Below, piece after piece: positions 1 through 9,429 of a stretch of 33,921 nt of DNA. The stretch spans positions 1 through 33,921 of the forward strand of contig QXZU01000066.1 in NCBI GenBank assembly GCA_009886205.1, in the 5' to 3' direction. Positions within the stretch are counted from its first letter, which is position 1. Each line of letters opens with the position of its first letter. The position numbers and the translations under genes are program-made. Under the pieces are notes generated by a model, which saw only the letters and a program-made list of their open reading frames with translations, was not told the origin of the DNA and did no database searches. Source of the DNA: K189A clade bacterium. GTDB taxonomy: Bacteria > Pseudomonadota > Gammaproteobacteria > Pseudomonadales > Azotimanducaceae.

Positions 1-797
1 GCGCCGTGTACCCGCACGAGTATTTTCTCTCGTAGCTGCGCTATGAGGTTGGCGGGGCTGCGGGTGAGACGGGTCAGGTGTGCAAGCGCCGCGTCTCGAG
101 ACTGTCCAAACTCGGTTAGGTCGCCGCCTGCGCAAAATGCTGAACCGCGACCGCTGATAACAATATGCGCTAAAGATTTGTCAGCCAATGCGAGGTTTAA
201 GGCCAAAGCCAATTCATCGCGCATCGCAGCACAAAATGCATTGCGCTTAGTCGGCCTGTTGAGCATTAAAGTTAAGGTGTCGCCGTGACTAATTTGCGCG
301 TTTAAGTATGCTCGGGGATTGCGCTCGACCAACACAACAGGCCCTTGATCTGCAGTCTCGGTCGCTGGCACCTGAGCCACAGTATTAGATCTGTTGCTTA
401 GCCAGGTTCTAAACCCCTGACTATTTTGTAGCGTACTGTAGGCGAGGGACTCCACCATTAAGCCTTGGCTAATAGACAAATTTTCTGTTTCTCGCAGCAC
501 GCCTACAAAGGTGGCAGCCGCCAATGGCTGGCTGGTTATCGTTGCAACTATTTGCTCTAGCAGCACCTGTTCTTCGGGCAATTGGATAACGAGATCTACC
601 CACGCGCTAATCTCAAATTCGTTATTTGATCCTGATCTTGAGCTTTCTAATGAACTTTTACCTGTATTTGGCCGCTCGGTGATGCCGATCACGGGGCAAT
701 TCGGTTTGGATGTAGGCATGTTCCTAGTTGCAGGCTGGTCTAAATCCACCAATAGATAACTCTGACCGCTGACAACGCTTTGATCTTCAGCCACCAT
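1..797 (-). CDS. Crotonase (enoyl-CoA hydratase/isomerase) with permuted N-terminal module, 3' end off window
   Basis: The minus strand is open from an ATG at 797 to the left edge: 265 codons, no stop. Residues 172-226 are the start of a crotonase core: LNRPTKRNA (179-187), then GRGSAFCAGGDL (216-227), the first oxyanion-hole loop, and the beginning of the second (VHGA, 263-266). Crotonases normally begin with this core. Here about 165 residues precede it, and residues 75-136 (IVATITSQP, VESLAYSTLQ, FRTWLSNR) resemble the helical module that usually ends a crotonase, which suggests a rotated domain order. The substrate is an acyl-CoA ester; the reaction is unknown. The start lies 7 bp from the divergent CoA-transferase start, so the pair probably shares regulation. 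A shorter start at 719, behind TAGGA, is possible and would give N-terminal MPTSKPN. The crotonase assignment is strong; the exact start is weak. Confidence 0.85.
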   Translation of the reverse strand, partial: MVAEDQSVVSGQSYLLVDLDQPATRNMPTSKPNCPVIGITERPNTGKSSLESSRSGSNNEFEISAWVDLVIQLPEEQVLLEQIVATITSQPLAAATFVGVLRETENLSISQGLMVESLAYSTLQNSQGFRTWLSNRSNTVAQVPATETADQGPVVLVERNPRAYLNAQISHGDTLTLMLNRPTKRNAFCAAMRDELALALNLALADKSLAHIVISGRGSAFCAGGDLTEFGQSRDAALAHLTRLTRSPANLIAQLREKILVRVHG

Positions 798-804
798 AGG
801 TGGT

Positions 805-1998
805 GTGATCAAAATAAACAGTTCAGCAGGCGACAAAATTTTGAGCGAAGCCGATTGGGAAAATATATTAGACATGGGCGGTAGTATACCTGCCTGCGGG
901 GTGAACGCCTGCGCTGACCAAGCCCTAGATGCGCTGCGTGTCTGGCACTGTGATTTGCTGCCTGGTGTCATGGGCAGAGACTTGCTTTGGGAGCGGGCTG
1001 CGGAACTAGGTTTGCGAGCCAAGGGCCAAATTTCCGCAAATGGTAGTTGTCGCATAATGGCAACCGGCAATGGCTGGTTGGGGCTGAATCTTGCACGGGA
1101 AGAGGATTGGGGATTGCTGAATCCTTGGCTTGAGCAAGACGGCGACTTATCTGAATGGGCGCATGTTGAGGAAGCCTTACTTGAGCGAGATGCCAAAGCC
1201 TTGGTCGCCCGAGGCAGGCTGATGGGGTTGCCTGTTTCTCTTCTACCGGAAAAAGTCATGTCTGAAAGTGCTGGCGCTAGCGAAATTTTGGACGGCGCGC
1301 CCGTATTTGAATTTACGCCTGATGCCAACGTTACATTGAGGTCATTCAATACAACTCAGCCCATGTCCGGTTTCAAGGTAGTAGACCTGTCAGCGTTATG
1401 GGCGGGGCCACTCTGCGCCCACTTATTGCACCAGTGCGGTATGCAGGTGACCTTTGTTACCAGTGTCCATAGGCCGGATGGTGCCCAGCAAGGTAGTCCA
1501 AAGTTGTATGAGGTGTTGCACCGCGGGCATGACCACGTTGAATTAGATTTCACCTCTCAAGAGGGTTTGCAGCGATTGGCGAATCTGCTGCGTAACGCAG
1601 ACGTGGTTATAGAAGGTTCAAGGCCGCGCGCATTGCGTGCGTTAGGTGTAGATAGAGACACGCTTGTGCCGCAAGGAAAACAGCTTTGGTTGTCTTTAAC
1701 TGCCTACGGACGCCGCGCACCCTTTGGTGACTGGGTAGGTTTTGGTGATGAAGTGGCGCTGGCCGCCGGGCTATTTGTTCAGCGCGAAGATGGACGACCA
1801 GAATTTATCGCTGATGCGGTGGCGGATCCGCTCACAGGTATTTTTGCGGCCCTTGCGGTAGTGAACCTTGTGCAAGGCGAGGCGAGCGGCTTACTCGACT
1901 TGTCTCTTTTTGCCGTGGTGTCCCATTGTCTGCAAAAAATCCACTGCGGCGGCGGGCAAGTGAATCATGAATACCTCAGGCCTAACCTGCGATGCTGA
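805..1998 (+). CDS. Family III (CaiB/BaiF-type) CoA-transferase, circularly permuted arrangement
   Basis: This 397-residue protein would move CoA between an acyl-CoA and a carboxylic acid through an aspartyl-CoA intermediate. The opening motif of the family, VVDLSALWAGPLCAHLL, lies at residues 192-208, not near residue 10. DVVIEGSRPRAL follows at 266-277, and the likely catalytic Asp is D341 in ADPLTG, 147 residues after D194, close to the usual spacing. The protein ends only 56 residues later. The missing distal part appears at the front: residues 78-96 (ANGSCRIM, GWLGLNL) and 136-147 (RGRLMGLPVSLL) look like the C-terminal block of ordinary family members. The start is GTG at 805, just after AGGTGG; ATG 871 is an alternative. 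The stop overlaps the amidohydrolase start by 7 nt (ATGCTGA), so translation is probably coupled. Confidence 0.88.
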   Translation: MIKINSSAGDKILSEADWENILDMGGSIPACGVNACADQALDALRVWHCDLLPGVMGRDLLWERAAELGLRAKGQISANGSCRIMATGNGWLGLNLAREEDWGLLNPWLEQDGDLSEWAHVEEALLERDAKALVARGRLMGLPVSLLPEKVMSESAGASEILDGAPVFEFTPDANVTLRSFNTTQPMSGFKVVDLSALWAGPLCAHLLHQCGMQVTFVTSVHRPDGAQQGSPKLYEVLHRGHDHVELDFTSQEGLQRLANLLRNADVVIEGSRPRALRALGVDRDTLVPQGKQLWLSLTAYGRRAPFGDWVGFGDEVALAAGLFVQREDGRPEFIADAVADPLTGIFAALAVVNLVQGEASGLLDLSLFAVVSHCLQKIHCGGGQVNHEYLRPNLRC

Positions 1999-3401
1999 TA
2001 AAAAACGTAATTCTGGACGGAGCTAAAAAAGACGTTCGCTGTACTCACGCATTTGTCAGTGAAGTTGCGAATGAACTTTTGGCCCATGAGGGTGAGCGGG
2101 TTATCCAGGCGAATGGTGGTGAGTTGTTGCCCGGTTTACACGACCACCACATGCATTTCTTTGCAACGGCTGCGTTGCAGCGCTCGGTAGATTGTGGCGT
2201 TAGTAGTGCCCCTACAGCAACGGGCCAGCTTCATAATGCCGAATCGTTAAGCCACATGTTGGCAAACTCTTCCGGAGAAGGTTGGCTGCGCGGTGTGAAC
2301 TATCACGAGAGCATCGCTGGAGATCTGGACCGCTGGCAGTTAGATGCGTTAGTCAGTGACAGGCCAGTGAGAATTCAGCACCGTAGTGGCAAACTGTGGA
2401 CTCTCAATAGTTTGGCGGTGGAAGCATTAGATTTGACCGCCCACAAAGAGTTGGCTGGCATTGAGCTAGATGACCGAGGAATACCAACTGGGCGGTTGTT
2501 TCGTCTGGATGCTTGGTTGCGCGAAAAATGGGGACAGCAAGATCCGTTAGATGTATCTGTGTTCTCGCGGCAGATGGCGAGCTTTGGTATTACCGGCTTT
2601 ACCGATACGTCGGTAACCAATACCGCGGCTACAGTTAGGCAATTTCGCCAACTGTGTGATGAAGGTGAAATACTGCAACATGCCTATCTAATGGGTGACG
2701 ACAGTCTTGATTTTGGGCATCTAAAAATTCTTCTAGACGAAGATAACCTGCCGCCTTTAAATGAGTTAGAGGCTCGCATCAGACGCGCTAGAGAGAAAGA
2801 AAGAGGCATAGCCTTTCATTGCGTGACCCATATAGAACTGTTGTTTGCAATCGCTGCCCTCAACAGTTGCGCAGATCTCGATCCGCAGATTCAATTTGCA
2901 GACCGCATTGAGCATGGCGCCATGATTTTTGATGATGTACTGCCAATGCTTAGAGCACTTAATCTCAGCGTGATTACGCAACCTCGTTTTTTGTATGAGC
3001 GCGGGCCCCAGTACCAGCAAAATTTAACTGAGCATGAGTTAGCTCATTTGTATCGCCACCGAACATTGTTGGATGCTGGAATAAAAGTTGGGCTGAGTAG
3101 CGATTCACCCTACGGGCCGCTTAATCCTTGGCAGGTTATGCAGTCCTCTGTTGCCCGTAGGACTGCTGGGGGAGTAGTTGTTGGGGCGCGAGATTGCGTC
3201 TCGCCTGAGCAAGCGCTAGCCGGTTATTTGTCCAGTGTTAACGCACCGGGTGGAGTTGTACGAAGGATAGCTGTTGGTGAGCCAGCGGACATGTGTTTGC
3301 TAACGCGGCCTTGGTCAGATGTTAAAAATGATTTGTCGGCAGTATTGGTCAGTCACACCGTTGTTGCTGGCGAGGTGATTTATTCTCGGATTGAGGATTG
3401 A
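1992..3401 (+). CDS. Amidohydrolase family 3 (YtcJ-like) metal-dependent hydrolase
   Basis: The 469-residue protein belongs to the amidohydrolase superfamily (family 3, YtcJ/N-substituted formamide deformylase group), which cleaves amide or related bonds in a metal-bearing TIM barrel. Visible motifs in order: LLPGLHDHHMH (45-55, the HxH ligands H53 and H55), RIQHRSGKLWTLNS (127-140), the candidate bridging lysine K244 in FGHLKILLDE, H276/H280 in FHCVTH, DRIEHG (304-309) and SSDSPYGP (369-376) with metal-site D371. The final beta-sandwich strand is PADMCLL (431-437). No signal peptide is visible, so it is cytoplasmic. The ATG overlaps the stop of the CoA-transferase, indicating an operon. The substrate is unknown; its fixed neighbours suggest it releases or prepares an acid for CoA activation. 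That role is inference. Confidence 0.88.
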   Translation: MLIKNVILDGAKKDVRCTHAFVSEVANELLAHEGERVIQANGGELLPGLHDHHMHFFATAALQRSVDCGVSSAPTATGQLHNAESLSHMLANSSGEGWLRGVNYHESIAGDLDRWQLDALVSDRPVRIQHRSGKLWTLNSLAVEALDLTAHKELAGIELDDRGIPTGRLFRLDAWLREKWGQQDPLDVSVFSRQMASFGITGFTDTSVTNTAATVRQFRQLCDEGEILQHAYLMGDDSLDFGHLKILLDEDNLPPLNELEARIRRAREKERGIAFHCVTHIELLFAIAALNSCADLDPQIQFADRIEHGAMIFDDVLPMLRALNLSVITQPRFLYERGPQYQQNLTEHELAHLYRHRTLLDAGIKVGLSSDSPYGPLNPWQVMQSSVARRTAGGVVVGARDCVSPEQALAGYLSSVNAPGGVVRRIAVGEPADMCLLTRPWSDVKNDLSAVLVSHTVVAGEVIYSRIED

Positions 3402-3512: not shown

Positions 3513-4667
3513 CTACTTTTTCTTTGATGTTTGCGTGACAGCCTTAACGGTGCCTTCGACTCTGCGATTTGCACGCCGGTTAGCGAAGTTATCATTATCT
3601 CGCTTAGGCTTAGACTCACCAAAGCTTTTCTTGGAGATTTTGCTGTTTGGGATCCGCGTATTCATCTCAACCAGTTTGGCTACCGCTGCAACGCGCGCTT
3701 GGGATAGAGCTTGGTTATAGGCCGACGCGCCGACACTATCGGTGTGTCCAGACAACTCGATAGATGCGCCAGAATGTCTTTTGGCGAAGTGGACAATTTT
3801 ATTCACTTCGTCATTATGTTCTGGTTTGGTTGCATAAGAATCGAAATCAAATTTGAACAGTACGTTGAGTTCTACGGGTTTACGCACGGTTACATAACAA
3901 CCATTGGAATCAATCACATTTCTTCGGTTTGTTGTATTTGGACATCTATCTTTCGCATCAATTACACCGTCGCTGTCGCTGTCTGTATTTCTGTCTTGCT
4001 GAGCTAAACAACCAATTTTATTGACCACTTGCCCTGCGGGGCTATTAGGGCATTGATCTTTGCTGTTGCTCACGCCGTCGCCGTCGCCGTCGTTATTGAT
4101 GGAACTCCCAGACCCTGCTGAAATGGTCGGCTTAGATTTTCTAGACGAATTGGTAATGACATGATGTATGCCGACACCGATAGTAGATCTGATGAAGCTG
4201 TGATCTTCGCTATCGTAGAACTTAAGCTCTGTGCGAACACCAGTGTTTTCCCACACTCGCCACTTGAGTCCTAGGCCAAAGTTAATTTGTTTCTCGGTGT
4301 TTCTAAAGTCGTTGCGGACATTCACATTAGATTCGCCTAAGCCGAATGTAAGATACGGGCGAATCGTTTCTGATTCGAAGGCGTGGTACAAGCCGTTGAT
4401 ATGCCACAGGTGCGAATCGATAGCGGTGTTGTTTAGGTCGCTGAATGACGAAGAGCCTTTTAGGTACGTATATTCAACGGCCCATGGGTTGTCGAATTGA
4501 TAGCCCAAACCTATGCCGTAACTAGAATCTCTATCGATATTGCTTGAACCTGAATAATTAGTTATGCCCACCTGTGGGAATATGGTGACTCCCGGAGAGT
4601 GATTTGCAAAGCTGATTTGAGACAGCATTGTTAAGGTTATGAGCAAGCATAGTTGAATGGAACGCAT
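3513..4667 (-). CDS. OmpA-family outer-membrane protein with beta-barrel, calcium-type repeats and peptidoglycan-binding domain
   Basis: The 384-residue protein has a signal peptide (1-21, ending SFA), then a small beta-barrel (about 26-172, with alternating strands such as YGIGLGYQF and VRTELKFYD). An acidic linker follows with two thrombospondin-type-3-like repeats (DGDGDGVSNSKDQCPNSP at 193-210, DSDSDGVIDAKDRCPNT at 229-245), expected to bind calcium. The C-terminal OmpA domain (about 268-375) has SGHTDSVG (306-313) and NQALSQARV (318-326); D310 and R325 are the usual diaminopimelate contacts. The role is anchoring the outer membrane to peptidoglycan. The ribosome site is weak (CAGG, 9 nt before ATG). 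It stands alone, convergent with the amidohydrolase operon. The cysteine pairs in the repeats are typical of this architecture. Confidence 0.92.
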   Translation of the reverse strand: MRSIQLCLLITLTMLSQISFANHSPGVTIFPQVGITNYSGSSNIDRDSSYGIGLGYQFDNPWAVEYTYLKGSSSFSDLNNTAIDSHLWHINGLYHAFESETIRPYLTFGLGESNVNVRNDFRNTEKQINFGLGLKWRVWENTGVRTELKFYDSEDHSFIRSTIGVGIHHVITNSSRKSKPTISAGSGSSINNDGDGDGVSNSKDQCPNSPAGQVVNKIGCLAQQDRNTDSDSDGVIDAKDRCPNTTNRRNVIDSNGCYVTVRKPVELNVLFKFDFDSYATKPEHNDEVNKIVHFAKRHSGASIELSGHTDSVGASAYNQALSQARVAAVAKLVEMNTRIPNSKISKKSFGESKPKRDNDNFANRRANRRVEGTVKAVTQTSKKK

Positions 4668-5000: not shown

Positions 5001-6182
5001 CTAGTCCGGCAGGCCGAGTACTCTCTTGGCAATAATATTCTGCTGTACTTCATTAGTGCCACCGTAAATGGTGACCGCTCTATCGCGTAACCAACCGCGA
5101 GTGGATTCAAGTTCATCCGCAGAAAATTCGCTGCTTTCCCAAACCAGGCCGGAGGTGCCTCGCAGTCTTGATTTCAGTTCCGAACCCGATTTACTCAACG
5201 AGGATCCCACCAACTTAAAGATCGAAGTCGCGGCTCCAGGGGCGCCAGAAGATTTACTTTCTTCAACGACTCTCTGAGTGGTTAGCGACAGTGCTTTTTC
5301 TTGCATGACTTGACCCAAAACGTCAGCTCTGGCTGCTTCATCTGCAATGCGTCCTTGGCTGTCTTCGCCAGCGTATTCTTTAGCCACAAGCGCGTAAGGA
5401 TTGAGCTTTGGCTTGCCTGCTGATTTCGGTTTGGTCCGTGTTGTAGCGTTGCGCTCATATTGGAGTAGGCGCTTACCCACACTCCAGCCCTTATTCATCT
5501 CTCCAATGAGGTCTTCGCGCTTGGCAATGGCGTTATCGAAAAACGTCTCGCAAAACGGCGAGGAACCTGAAATAAGCTTAATCGGCTTAACGGTAACCCC
5601 CGGCTGGTCCATGGAAAGCACAACAAAACTAATACCTTCATGCTTAGGGGCCGTTGGGTCGGTGCGCACTAGGGCAAACATCCAGTTGGCATATTGCGCA
5701 CCACTGGTCCAGATCTTCTGACCGTTGATAATGAATTGATCACCCTCGAGTACCGCCTTGGTTTGTAGACCCGCAAGGTCAGAACCCGCGCCTGGCTCAG
5801 AGTAACCTTGGCACCACTGAGCTTCGCCAGTAATGATTTTAGGGAGGTGTCTTTGTCTTTGTTCCTCTGTGCCCATTTCTAAGAGGGTCGGCCCAATCAT
5901 TGCCAGGCCCATACCTGTGGCGGGGGGCAGCGCTTTGATACGTGCCATTTCTTGGGCCAGCACCTGATGTTGTTCCTTGGCTAAGCCGCCACCGCCGTAT
6001 TGTGTAGGCCATGCTGGAGCGGTCCAGCCCCTAGCGGCTGCGCGATCTCGCCATTCAATAGCGGCATCAGTGCGGTAAACTTCGTAGGCATCTTCAAAGT
6101 GTACTGCGCCCAAGCGCATATCTTGAGGGCAATTGTCCTCTAGCCAATCTCGGGTTTCTTCGCGGAATGTATTTAGGTCCAT
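5001..6182 (-). CDS. Acyl-CoA dehydrogenase (FadE-like)
   Basis: The 393-residue flavoprotein should oxidise an acyl-CoA to the 2-enoyl-CoA and pass electrons to ETF. It has the alpha-helical N-domain (1-120), the flavin/substrate motif YSEPGAGSDLAG (127-138), IINGQKIWTSGA (151-162), and the end motif IYGGTNEVQQNIIAKRVLG (372-390). Where medium-chain enzymes carry the catalytic glutamate (YEGT) this protein has G374; E243 in LLQYERN sits where long-chain and isovaleryl-type enzymes keep their base. A polar insertion rich in K, P and S (about 249-262) follows it. ATG 6182 is preceded by GAGG with 8-nt spacing. The family resemblance is to FadE enzymes acting on bulky acyl-CoAs, which is inference. 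The next gene upstream on the same strand is the FBP-domain protein, 111 bp away. Confidence 0.93.
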   Translation of the reverse strand: MDLNTFREETRDWLEDNCPQDMRLGAVHFEDAYEVYRTDAAIEWRDRAAARGWTAPAWPTQYGGGGLAKEQHQVLAQEMARIKALPPATGMGLAMIGPTLLEMGTEEQRQRHLPKIITGEAQWCQGYSEPGAGSDLAGLQTKAVLEGDQFIINGQKIWTSGAQYANWMFALVRTDPTAPKHEGISFVVLSMDQPGVTVKPIKLISGSSPFCETFFDNAIAKREDLIGEMNKGWSVGKRLLQYERNATTRTKPKSAGKPKLNPYALVAKEYAGEDSQGRIADEAARADVLGQVMQEKALSLTTQRVVEESKSSGAPGAATSIFKLVGSSLSKSGSELKSRLRGTSGLVWESSEFSADELESTRGWLRDRAVTIYGGTNEVQQNIIAKRVLGLPD

Positions 6183-6293
6183 GCCTTAAGCCTCATAAAT
6201 TTTTTTTCAAATATAATTATGCTGGGAAGCCAGTGCGTTGCCAATCCTTTGGGCCTAAATCACAGTATTCGCGCGTGCAGCAATGGGAAATGT

Positions 6294-6788
6294 CTATATT
6301 TTGTCGATTAATTGGCCGGCTACATTGGCTCGATGCATAAAGGCTAAGACTGAAGTTTCCAGACGCTGAATCTTTCTTCCGATGTCTAATGTTTCAGGTA
6401 AATAGGTGGGTGGATCGGACGGTAAGTTTCTGATCCGCAGGCTGCAATCTAGGTTGCTGCAAATGTGATTGCCAATAAAGCGGCGATCATCCGAACCCGC
6501 AACAGTGGTGCTGAACAGGGCCGTACCCCTGCTGCGATAGACGTGATGGCACCAAGAGCACATACGGCTTCTTGGTTTAGCGTCATGGTTGATGCTACGG
6601 CGCAGACTCATTGAAAAGAGCTTGTCACCAGCCGGTATGACCACAAAACCCTTATGTCCTGACGGGTGTACCCAGCCAAAGTAATCTAACACGCCCCAGT
6701 CCACAGGCTGTAAATCAGGCATGCCCAACTCGGAACTCAGCAGACCTGGGAAAAGTTTTCGAATTTCACTCCGCTCTAATGTATCCAC
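6294..6788 (-). CDS. FBP-domain (FusB-like, treble-clef zinc finger) protein
   Basis: The 164-residue protein carries the cysteine pattern of the EF-G-binding/FBP treble-clef family: C77 and C80 (RMCSWCHH) and C110 and C115 (HICSNLDCSLRIR), followed by basic residues. The region before (about 28-70, GWVHPSGHKGFVVIP) matches the beta-rich part of this family. Known relatives bind translation elongation factor G, and some relieve fusidic acid inhibition; no such role is shown here. The start is GTG at 6788, with no clear ribosome site. The C-terminal helix (about 136-160) closes the domain, so the protein looks complete. It may be cotranscribed with the acyl-CoA dehydrogenase 111 bp downstream, but nothing links their functions. 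Confidence 0.8.
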   Translation of the reverse strand: MDTLERSEIRKLFPGLLSSELGMPDLQPVDWGVLDYFGWVHPSGHKGFVVIPAGDKLFSMSLRRSINHDAKPRSRMCSWCHHVYRSRGTALFSTTVAGSDDRRFIGNHICSNLDCSLRIRNLPSDPPTYLPETLDIGRKIQRLETSVLAFMHRANVAGQLIDKI

Positions 6789-8292: not shown

Positions 8293-9429
8293 ATGAGCAC
8301 TTTACCTGAGACCGGTTTACAACTTCTTTCCTGTGTTACTTCCACAGGCACATTACAACTTTCACTGGCAGACTGCCCCGTGGATGCGCCAAAAGACAGC
8401 CAAGTGGTTGTGCAAATTCAAGCGTCACCGATTAATCCTTCAGATCTTGGTTTGTTGTTGGGTTTGGCTGATATTTCCACTGCCAGATCTGTTGCCGATG
8501 GAGCACAGCCTAAAGTTGAAGCCGATGTGCCGGCTGGTATTTTGCCGCACTTGAGTGCTCGTTTTGATGAGGCCATGCCTGTAGGTAACGAAGGTTCTGG
8601 TGTGGTTATTGCCGCAGGCGACAGCCCTGAAGCGCAAGCGCTTTTGGGTAAGACCGTGGGTGTACTAGGCGGCGCAATGTATTCTCAATATCGCACTTTG
8701 CATGTGAGCCAATGTCTGGCTATGCACGACGGTGTGACAGCGAAAGAAAGCGCTTCTTGTTTTGTTAACCCGTTAACCGCGTTAGGTATGGTTGAGACCA
8801 TGCGCAGCGAAGGCTACAAAGCGTTAATACACACGGCTGCAGCCTCAAACCTAGGTCAGATGTTGCAAAAAATCTGCCTCGCTGATGGAGTCGATTTGGT
8901 CAACATCGTACGTAAGCCTGAACAAGCTCAGTTGCTTCGTGACATCGGTGCAACTTACGTATGTGATTCAAGCCTGCCAACCTTCGCCGAAGATTTGAAA
9001 GCGGCTATTGTTGCTACCGGCGCGTACCTTGCGTTCGATGCAACCGGTGGTGGTCAACTAGCCAACCATATTTTGGCCGCTATGGAAGTTGCAGCTAACG
9101 AAACAGCTACTGAATACAGCCGTTATGGATCAGCGCAATACAAGCAAGTTTACATTTATGGCGGCTTGGAGCGCAGCCCAACTACGCTGACTCGTAGCTA
9201 CGGTATGCAGTGGGGGTTAGGCGGTTGGTTGTTAACACCATTTTTGCAAAAAATTGGTCAAGCGCGCGCAGGTGAGTTGCGTCAACGTGTAGCAGATGAA
9301 GTACGTACAACTTTTGCGAGTAGCTATGCCGAAGAAATTTCCCTCGCTCAGGCCTTGGATTTGGACGTGCTGAAGACTTATGCGCTGCAAGCAACAGGTC
9401 AAAAGTACCTAGTGAATCCCAGCCTATAA
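8293..9429 (+). CDS. Zinc-less MDR-family NAD(P)H-dependent oxidoreductase (enoyl reductase/quinone reductase type)
   Basis: The 378-residue protein is a medium-chain dehydrogenase/reductase. The catalytic GroES-like domain has ASPINPSDLGLL (44-55) and GNEGSGVV (98-105). The Rossmann domain has LIHTAAASNLGQML (178-191), with AAASNLG as the nucleotide loop, and FDATGGG further on. The cysteine and histidine zinc ligands of alcohol dehydrogenases are absent, as in quinone reductases and mitochondrial-type 2-enoyl-CoA reductases (MECR), which share the NPSD motif. It is longer than the usual 325-340 residues because of inserts near 60-95 and in the C-terminal half. AAGGGGG lies a few bases before ATG 8293, a strong ribosome site. 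It is followed by a hairpin at 9448-9488, so it is probably monocistronic. Confidence 0.88.
   Translation: MSTLPETGLQLLSCVTSTGTLQLSLADCPVDAPKDSQVVVQIQASPINPSDLGLLLGLADISTARSVADGAQPKVEADVPAGILPHLSARFDEAMPVGNEGSGVVIAAGDSPEAQALLGKTVGVLGGAMYSQYRTLHVSQCLAMHDGVTAKESASCFVNPLTALGMVETMRSEGYKALIHTAAASNLGQMLQKICLADGVDLVNIVRKPEQAQLLRDIGATYVCDSSLPTFAEDLKAAIVATGAYLAFDATGGGQLANHILAAMEVAANETATEYSRYGSAQYKQVYIYGGLERSPTTLTRSYGMQWGLGGWLLTPFLQKIGQARAGELRQRVADEVRTTFASSYAEEISLAQALDLDVLKTYALQATGQKYLVNPSL

Follow-up and report, generated by a model that had tools for sequence, protein, structure and literature searches.

A recurrent gene trio in a K189A clade bacterium: an amidohydrolase and two coenzyme A enzymes of apparently rearranged domain order

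Positions 1 to 33,921 of contig QXZU01000066.1, from a K189A clade bacterium (Gammaproteobacteria, Azotimanducaceae; assembly GCA_009886205.1), form the 33,921-nucleotide (nt) stretch analysed here and referred to below as the window. Its left edge is the end of an assembly contig and falls inside a gene for a crotonase-like protein (CROT, minus strand), beside which lie genes for a family III coenzyme A (CoA) transferase (CoAT) and an amidohydrolase (AMID), both on the plus strand. The reading that we consider rather probable, though well short of certain, is that this locus belongs to a catabolic module, conserved and portable, with a CoAT-AMID pair and CROT as its core, and that both CoA enzymes have been remade by tandem duplication and loss. 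That the three genes make up a recurrent set is strongly supported. CROT and CoAT belong to known superfamilies, and the new part would be their departure from the domain order of these families; a literature search conducted at the level of abstracts, with few subscription papers, found neither rotation described, nor the module. It would be surprising to find two unrelated enzymes rearranged alike in a single co-occurring module, and the idea is testable.

The initial annotation had read a crotonase at 3-797 (minus strand), a CoA-transferase at 805-1998 and an amidohydrolase at 1992-3401 (both plus strand). Pfam matches to ECH_1, CoA_transf_3 and Amidohydro_3 bear these calls out, and the 7-nt overlap noted between the end of CoAT and the start of AMID (1992-1998) is confirmed.

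Recurrence and mobility of the three genes

In a first search, CoAT, CROT and AMID were found together in 22 of 25 loci, with two of the three exceptions cut by contig ends. Relatives of CoAT occupy at least 577 stretches in GTDB genomes, the best 80 of which were examined: the fetched stretch held the full trio in 48 cases, lacked CROT in 19 and AMID in 5, and held CoAT alone in 8, several of the incomplete stretches being short or ending early. A whole-genome search located CROT elsewhere, in one copy each, for 21 of the 27 CoAT loci without a local CROT gene, bringing to 74 of 80 the CoAT loci with CROT either beside them or elsewhere in the genome. We also drew 398 genomes evenly from the phylum and scored the 8-12 best first-look candidates of each, so that misses are possible; here the N-terminal half of CoAT was found in three genomes and the N-terminal module of CROT in exactly those three; with the window's genome excluded, the chance of drawing the identical two genomes among 397 is about 1 in 79,000.

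The descent of the three proteins, which the initial annotation had proposed comparing, points the same way: their distance matrices correlate at 0.88-0.90 over 42 loci, a set that has no unlinked control gene and draws many loci from one genus (all three genes within set length limits; near duplicates L093, L106 and L125 removed). At most loci CoAT and AMID are direct neighbours on the same strand. The module turned up in records whose titles name members of the Pseudomonadota, Actinomycetota, Verrucomicrobia, Polyangiaceae and Deltaproteobacteria, so that the co-occurrence and proximity in distant taxa by which a gene module is recognized are both present. The actinobacterial trios mentioned in the initial annotation do exist, in Rhodococcus, Streptomyces and Geodermatophilus.

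Twelve plasmid loci, 11 of them annotated, were fetched from Rhodococcus, Streptomyces and Sphingomonadaceae. Ten of these carry the trio with full-length rotated proteins, and the gene-order mapping that had been suggested at the outset gave four orders among the nine annotated trio loci, amid flanks that vary from mycofactocin, hydroxyphenylpropionate and hydantoinase genes to ABC transporters. Because the trio is kept through these different orders and surroundings, it is a portable module. Two of the plasmid loci, L175 and L088, are about 95% identical and hence not independent, and the N-terminal half of CoAT, used as a plasmid query, returned only its own source record. The annotated plasmids name the three genes generically, as CoA transferase, enoyl-CoA hydratase/isomerase and amidohydrolase. 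On a Streptomyces plasmid the mycofactocin gene cluster directly adjoins the trio (L091:3856-11349); a tblastn search with five of its proteins found this cluster at no other fetched locus.

Domain order of the two coenzyme A enzymes

Family III CoA-transferases (CaiB/BaiF; for example Rv3272, 5yit, and formyl-CoA transferase) have a Rossmann N-terminal half, with the catalytic aspartate, before a half that contains the small domain. CoAT shares both halves with them, whereas their order is swapped. The C-terminal half of the window's CoAT (1363-1932, plus strand; residues 187-376, predicted structure) matches positions 1-203 of the 366 in the Pfam model PF02515 (CoA_transf_3), which is the Rossmann half of a normal enzyme; the N-terminal half (841-1371, plus strand; positions read on relatives) would be the small domain and the part following it, about 139-313 of PF02515, moved to the front. 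When N-terminal halves were scanned alone, 24 of 59 members matched CoA_transf_3 (best E 5.9e-9), and no other Pfam family matched more than one of the 59; the window's own N-terminal half gave no Pfam match. The clearest case is from Rhodococcus opacus (PF02515 139-313, 27.4 bits, curated cut-off 23.3). Ten selected halves scanned singly gave seven CoA_transf_3 matches, one of them above the cut-off. In hhalign comparisons, two-domain CoA-transferases gave the N-terminal half a score of 49.9, with 14.4 for the reversed control, and canonical ones gave it 26.8 along positions 161-341, with 16.2 when reversed. A CoA-transferase model of NCBIfam was matched by 1 of the 59. PDB yielded a single match, to a CaiB/BaiF protein (E 2), and some of that alignment is probably out of register.

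The two halves also overlap in what they represent: positions 139-203 of PF02515 occur twice in CoAT, once in each half. The protein end of longer relatives weakly matches the normal C-terminal tail (columns 434-452 on 388-406, score 28.3), which suggests that these relatives keep that tail. A repeated middle stretch together with a retained tail is the pattern that would be left if the gene had been duplicated in tandem and the first copy had then lost its front and the second its middle. The CoAT model (predicted local distance difference test score, pLDDT, 87.4; predicted template modelling score, pTM, 0.90) aligns from residue 183 onward to solved CoA-transferases, with Z 19.6 over 204 residues and a root-mean-square deviation (rmsd) of 3.0 to 5yit_D; for this model and for that of CROT, structural alignments covered only the cores. 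The idea that CoAT descends from neighbouring two-domain CoA-transferases found no support, the N-terminal half being nearer their second domain and the C-terminal half nearer their first.

CROT resembles the crotonase superfamily (PaaF, 4fzw_A; 6lvp_A) in its core fold, motifs and both catalytic glutamates. It differs from normal crotonases in that the C-terminal helical part is absent from the end and appears instead near the N-terminus, behind what seems to be a decayed remnant of a first copy of the crotonase. The window's copy (3-875, minus strand; ECH_1 at 4.6e-13) loses its 3' end where the window begins at the contig end; even so, it scores 49.5 bits against ECH_1, for a cut-off of 27, and has the core motifs of the superfamily. 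Reading from its start, the remnant would occupy 597-875, the moved module of four helices, equated with the C-terminal helices of normal crotonases and read on relatives, 390-596, and the catalytic core, corresponding to the N-terminal part of a normal crotonase, 3-344 (all minus strand), the stretch with both catalytic glutamates lying outside the window. In the close relative L062, CROT is complete; its predicted structure (pLDDT 92.7, pTM 0.91) shows a beta-beta-alpha-beta remnant and then four helices, whose number and order are those expected, and residues 141-333 align to residues 4-188 of 6lvp_A (Z 21.3, 183 residues, rmsd 1.9).

Where CROT ends is also informative. Among 60 genes measured, 57 stop 4-10 residues past a GL[IV] motif and three stop 19-36 past it, compared with 79-81 residues in 11 canonical crotonases; the count leaves out, from 70 CROT genes, seven without the IGR motif and three without GL[IVLM], and the canonical figure covers only those 11 of 28 that matched the motif. 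In normal crotonases the C-terminal helical module follows the core; in CROT it was found ahead of it. When a profile of the CROT N-terminal module was run against 177,635 PDB sequences, the two top matches were crotonases, at residues 188-227 and 190-254, and the remnant was placed weakly on crotonase residues 80-124 and 104-141, in the right order; the next matches were unrelated (a sensor kinase and two lyase chains). Since only 216 of the PDB sequences match whole CROT at E <=0.001, it is unlikely, on this sequence comparison, that two crotonases would take the top two places by chance. In NCBIfam, a minority of the N-terminal modules matched crotonase models (commonest model: eight members, best E 0.0073), amid other weak matches, and ten selected modules scanned singly gave one crotonase family (positions 199-256 of 259), one unrelated family and eight blanks. 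By hhalign against 27 canonical crotonases, the remnant scored 15.3, above a shuffled maximum of 12.8. The window's genome has 38 crotonase-like matches, and only the CROT of the window extends into the N-terminal module.

Several results weigh against the favoured reading. The two crotonase matches in PDB are weak singly (E 0.053 and 0.26); the Pfam crotonase family was matched by none of 58 CROT N-terminal modules; and the helical module scored 13.4 by hhalign against the 27 canonical crotonases, below the shuffled-column maximum of 21.5. A first rotated CROT profile gained +2.93 bits on 30 targets, inside the range of its shuffles (1.78-5.37), with 2.61 for the reversed profile and 7.76 for the native order. 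Rotated CoAT profiles speak neither for nor against the rotation: -1.66 bits on 34 targets in a first test (native +0.25, shuffles about -1.6), and in a second +0.02 against a maximum of -0.16, with the module crossed in only 3% of 33 targets. On the side of the module, CROT was not found for 6 of the 80 CoAT loci, at the locus or by whole-genome search, and stands alone on 2 of the 12 plasmid loci; the flanking genes differ so strongly that no substrate can be derived from them.

The first of these negatives are what would be expected if the N-terminal parts were not moved pieces of the folds at all, being instead unrelated accessory domains fused to truncated enzymes: the absent Pfam matches, the helical module at shuffled level and the better score of the native-order profile all lean this way. 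We nevertheless regard this as the least probable of the alternatives considered here and highly improbable in itself. Two dozen isolated CoAT N-terminal halves match CoA_transf_3, one member above the curated cut-off; the best PDB and commonest NCBIfam matches of the CROT module are crotonases, at C-terminal positions where these are shown; the four helices predicted for CROT agree with normal crotonases in number and order; and the CROT core stops where the moved part should begin. A second rotated CROT profile, with the module behind the core, was tried on 22 normal crotonases and reached +6.23 bits, the highest of 15 shuffles being 5.19, its junctions having been taken from the anatomy after the first test had failed.

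Under the reading of duplication and loss, the crotonase and CoA-transferase genes would each have been duplicated in tandem, the C-terminal part of the first copy now preceding the N-terminal catalytic part of the second. Circular permutation can arise by tandem duplication and truncation; as in that mechanism, a stretch recurs in both halves and the losses complement each other. The trio enzymes differ from the general case in that two unrelated folds are affected within one gene module. The rotated order that the initial annotation had claimed for both enzymes is supported by family models, profile searches and predicted structures. "Rotated" serves well as a first label; the anatomy looks like duplication plus truncation. 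In the predicted structures, with alignments spanning the cores, the catalytic core remains last in both enzymes.

Catalytic residues and possible roles

The residue aligned with Asp175 of Rv3272 (5yit, and 5yiy, the D175A mutant) is aspartate in all 59 CoAT rows; numbered from GTG 805 it is Asp341, with its codon at 1825-1827 (plus strand). In CROT, the glutamates E263 and E283 (L062 numbering), which align with the GAGCEL and LPE motifs of PaaF, are present in 58 of 58 rows, the truncated window copy being left out. We take their role to be that of Glu144 and Glu164 in rat enoyl-CoA hydratase. This conservation argues for both rearranged proteins being active enzymes. AMID (1992-3401, plus strand) matches the full profile of amidohydrolase family 3 (PF07969, 5.1e-39), and the metal ligands of that family (HxH, His, His, Asp) are conserved as H53, H55, H276, H308 and D371, each in 70 of 70 aligned sequences from a cluster of 84. 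Its only PDB relatives at E <=1e-6 are 3igh and 3icj, both uncharacterised structural-genomics hydrolases matched at about 1e-10. That one or both rotated enzymes have become non-catalytic regulators or scaffolds is an idea suggested by their rearranged folds; it is very unlikely, given the invariant aspartate and glutamates and the conserved metal ligands of AMID.

If all three proteins are active, CROT may hydrate an enoyl-CoA by means of its two glutamates, and CoAT may transfer CoA onto or between carboxylates through an aspartyl intermediate at Asp341. AMID could carry out metal-dependent hydrolysis of a ring or of an ester or amide bond on the same route, yielding a free carboxylate for activation by CoAT. 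The initial annotation had put amide cleavage first; the amidohydrolase superfamily acts also on esters, lactones and cyclic amides, so this choice is not readable from the AMID sequence. Together the three steps would fit the breakdown of an acid that contains a ring, an ester or an amide. The chemistry of the trio, once solved, could annotate hundreds of loci.

How the three proteins would work together can be pictured in more than one way. One tentative proposal is a CoA-ester pathway or complex in which both CoA enzymes are "tail-first" since their moved N-terminal modules share a purpose, such as docking to each other, to AMID or to a protein of about 100 amino acids (aa) encoded near many trio copies, to allow substrate channelling. 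Another possibility, also doubtful, is that the trio degrades one class of compound, for example a steroid- or terpenoid-like acid, with P450, Rieske oxygenase, thiolase-like and OB-fold neighbours included in the pathway. Hellea and related loci do share a ChsH2-type OB protein, a lipid-transfer/thiolase-like protein, a P450 and a KshA-type Rieske protein (families identified on L102), but the plasmid flanks, with their hydroxyphenylpropionate, hydantoinase and mycofactocin genes and transporters, are of other kinds. Varying flanks would favour either an intermediate that several pathways have in common or a role as helper. In the latter case a trio complex would recycle or correct the CoA thioesters of many catabolic pathways, and the persistence of the three proteins together while flanks and gene orders change is consistent with this. 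Such a general helper is rather unlikely, however: among the best first-look candidates scored in each of the 398 genomes drawn, 395 genomes gave neither CoAT nor CROT.

Gene starts and neighbouring genes

The initial annotation had the crotonase and transferase starting 7 bp apart on opposite strands, which is probably wrong. For CROT, an in-frame ATG lies 26 codons upstream of the first-read start (797) in the window (875, minus strand) and in its three closest relatives, and 25 codons upstream in nine other loci of the genus, 20 in seven and 17 in one; ATG 875 is the likeliest start. For CoAT (805-1998), GTG 805 is possible and TTG 841 is the better conserved: a start codon is present at codon 12 or 13 of the first-read frame in 18 of 22 genus loci, and in 7 of those 18 an in-frame stop ahead of it rules out a start of the GTG 805 type. 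The remaining four comprise L079 and L080, which start at codon 20-25, L083, which aligns poorly, and L072, which is cut by a contig end. Going by this comparison of start codons, CROT and CoAT probably share about 35 nt at their 5' ends (841-875), in a head-to-head overlap. A divergent overlap of 5' coding regions at this position would place each promoter within the other gene.

Two further genes, one acyl-CoA-ligase-like and one encoding the protein of about 100 aa, accompany many proteobacterial trio copies. Of 106 loci that have at least one trio gene, 57 also have the ligase-like gene, no more than 500 nt from the trio in 44, and the gene for the small protein lies within 300 nt of it in 29 of the 106. 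The small protein (L062:4893-5207, L102:8251-8553 and 31 other loci) has an invariant CGG, GKRY and a C-terminal LP..D (a tail like LPSSD or LPKTD) in 28 sequences; no match was found in Pfam for two members or in NCBIfam for one, nor any credible PDB match for the profile. Its gene, searched for among the 8-12 best first-look candidates per genome, is in two of the three module-bearing genomes among the 398, the third being the genome of the window, where it was not found; nor was the ligase gene (best 32% identity). The end of the contig within CROT is the presumed reason in both cases. CROT genes without neighbouring CoAT or AMID are at L089:11674-12732 and L090:11731-12780, on plasmids of Rhodococcus and Sphingomonas, and in L090 a gene for the protein of about 100 aa and an adenylate-forming enzyme precede CROT.

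The genome of the window is small (2.97 Mb) and has, with its crotonase-like matches, 20 CoA-transferase-like ones, on which grounds the organism is probably an acyl-CoA specialist. Gene orders in the surroundings are rough, the open reading frame (ORF) calling having been greedy and prone to miss genes in GC-rich loci. Between the trio and an acyl-CoA dehydrogenase, the window encodes an OmpA-like protein with acidic repeats, read from the translation (3513-4667), and its gene cluster recurs in L063 and L064. At many of the genus loci, the acyl-CoA dehydrogenase, a 164-aa hypothetical protein and an alcohol-dehydrogenase-like gene (5001-6788 and 8293-9429 in the window) likewise adjoin the trio.

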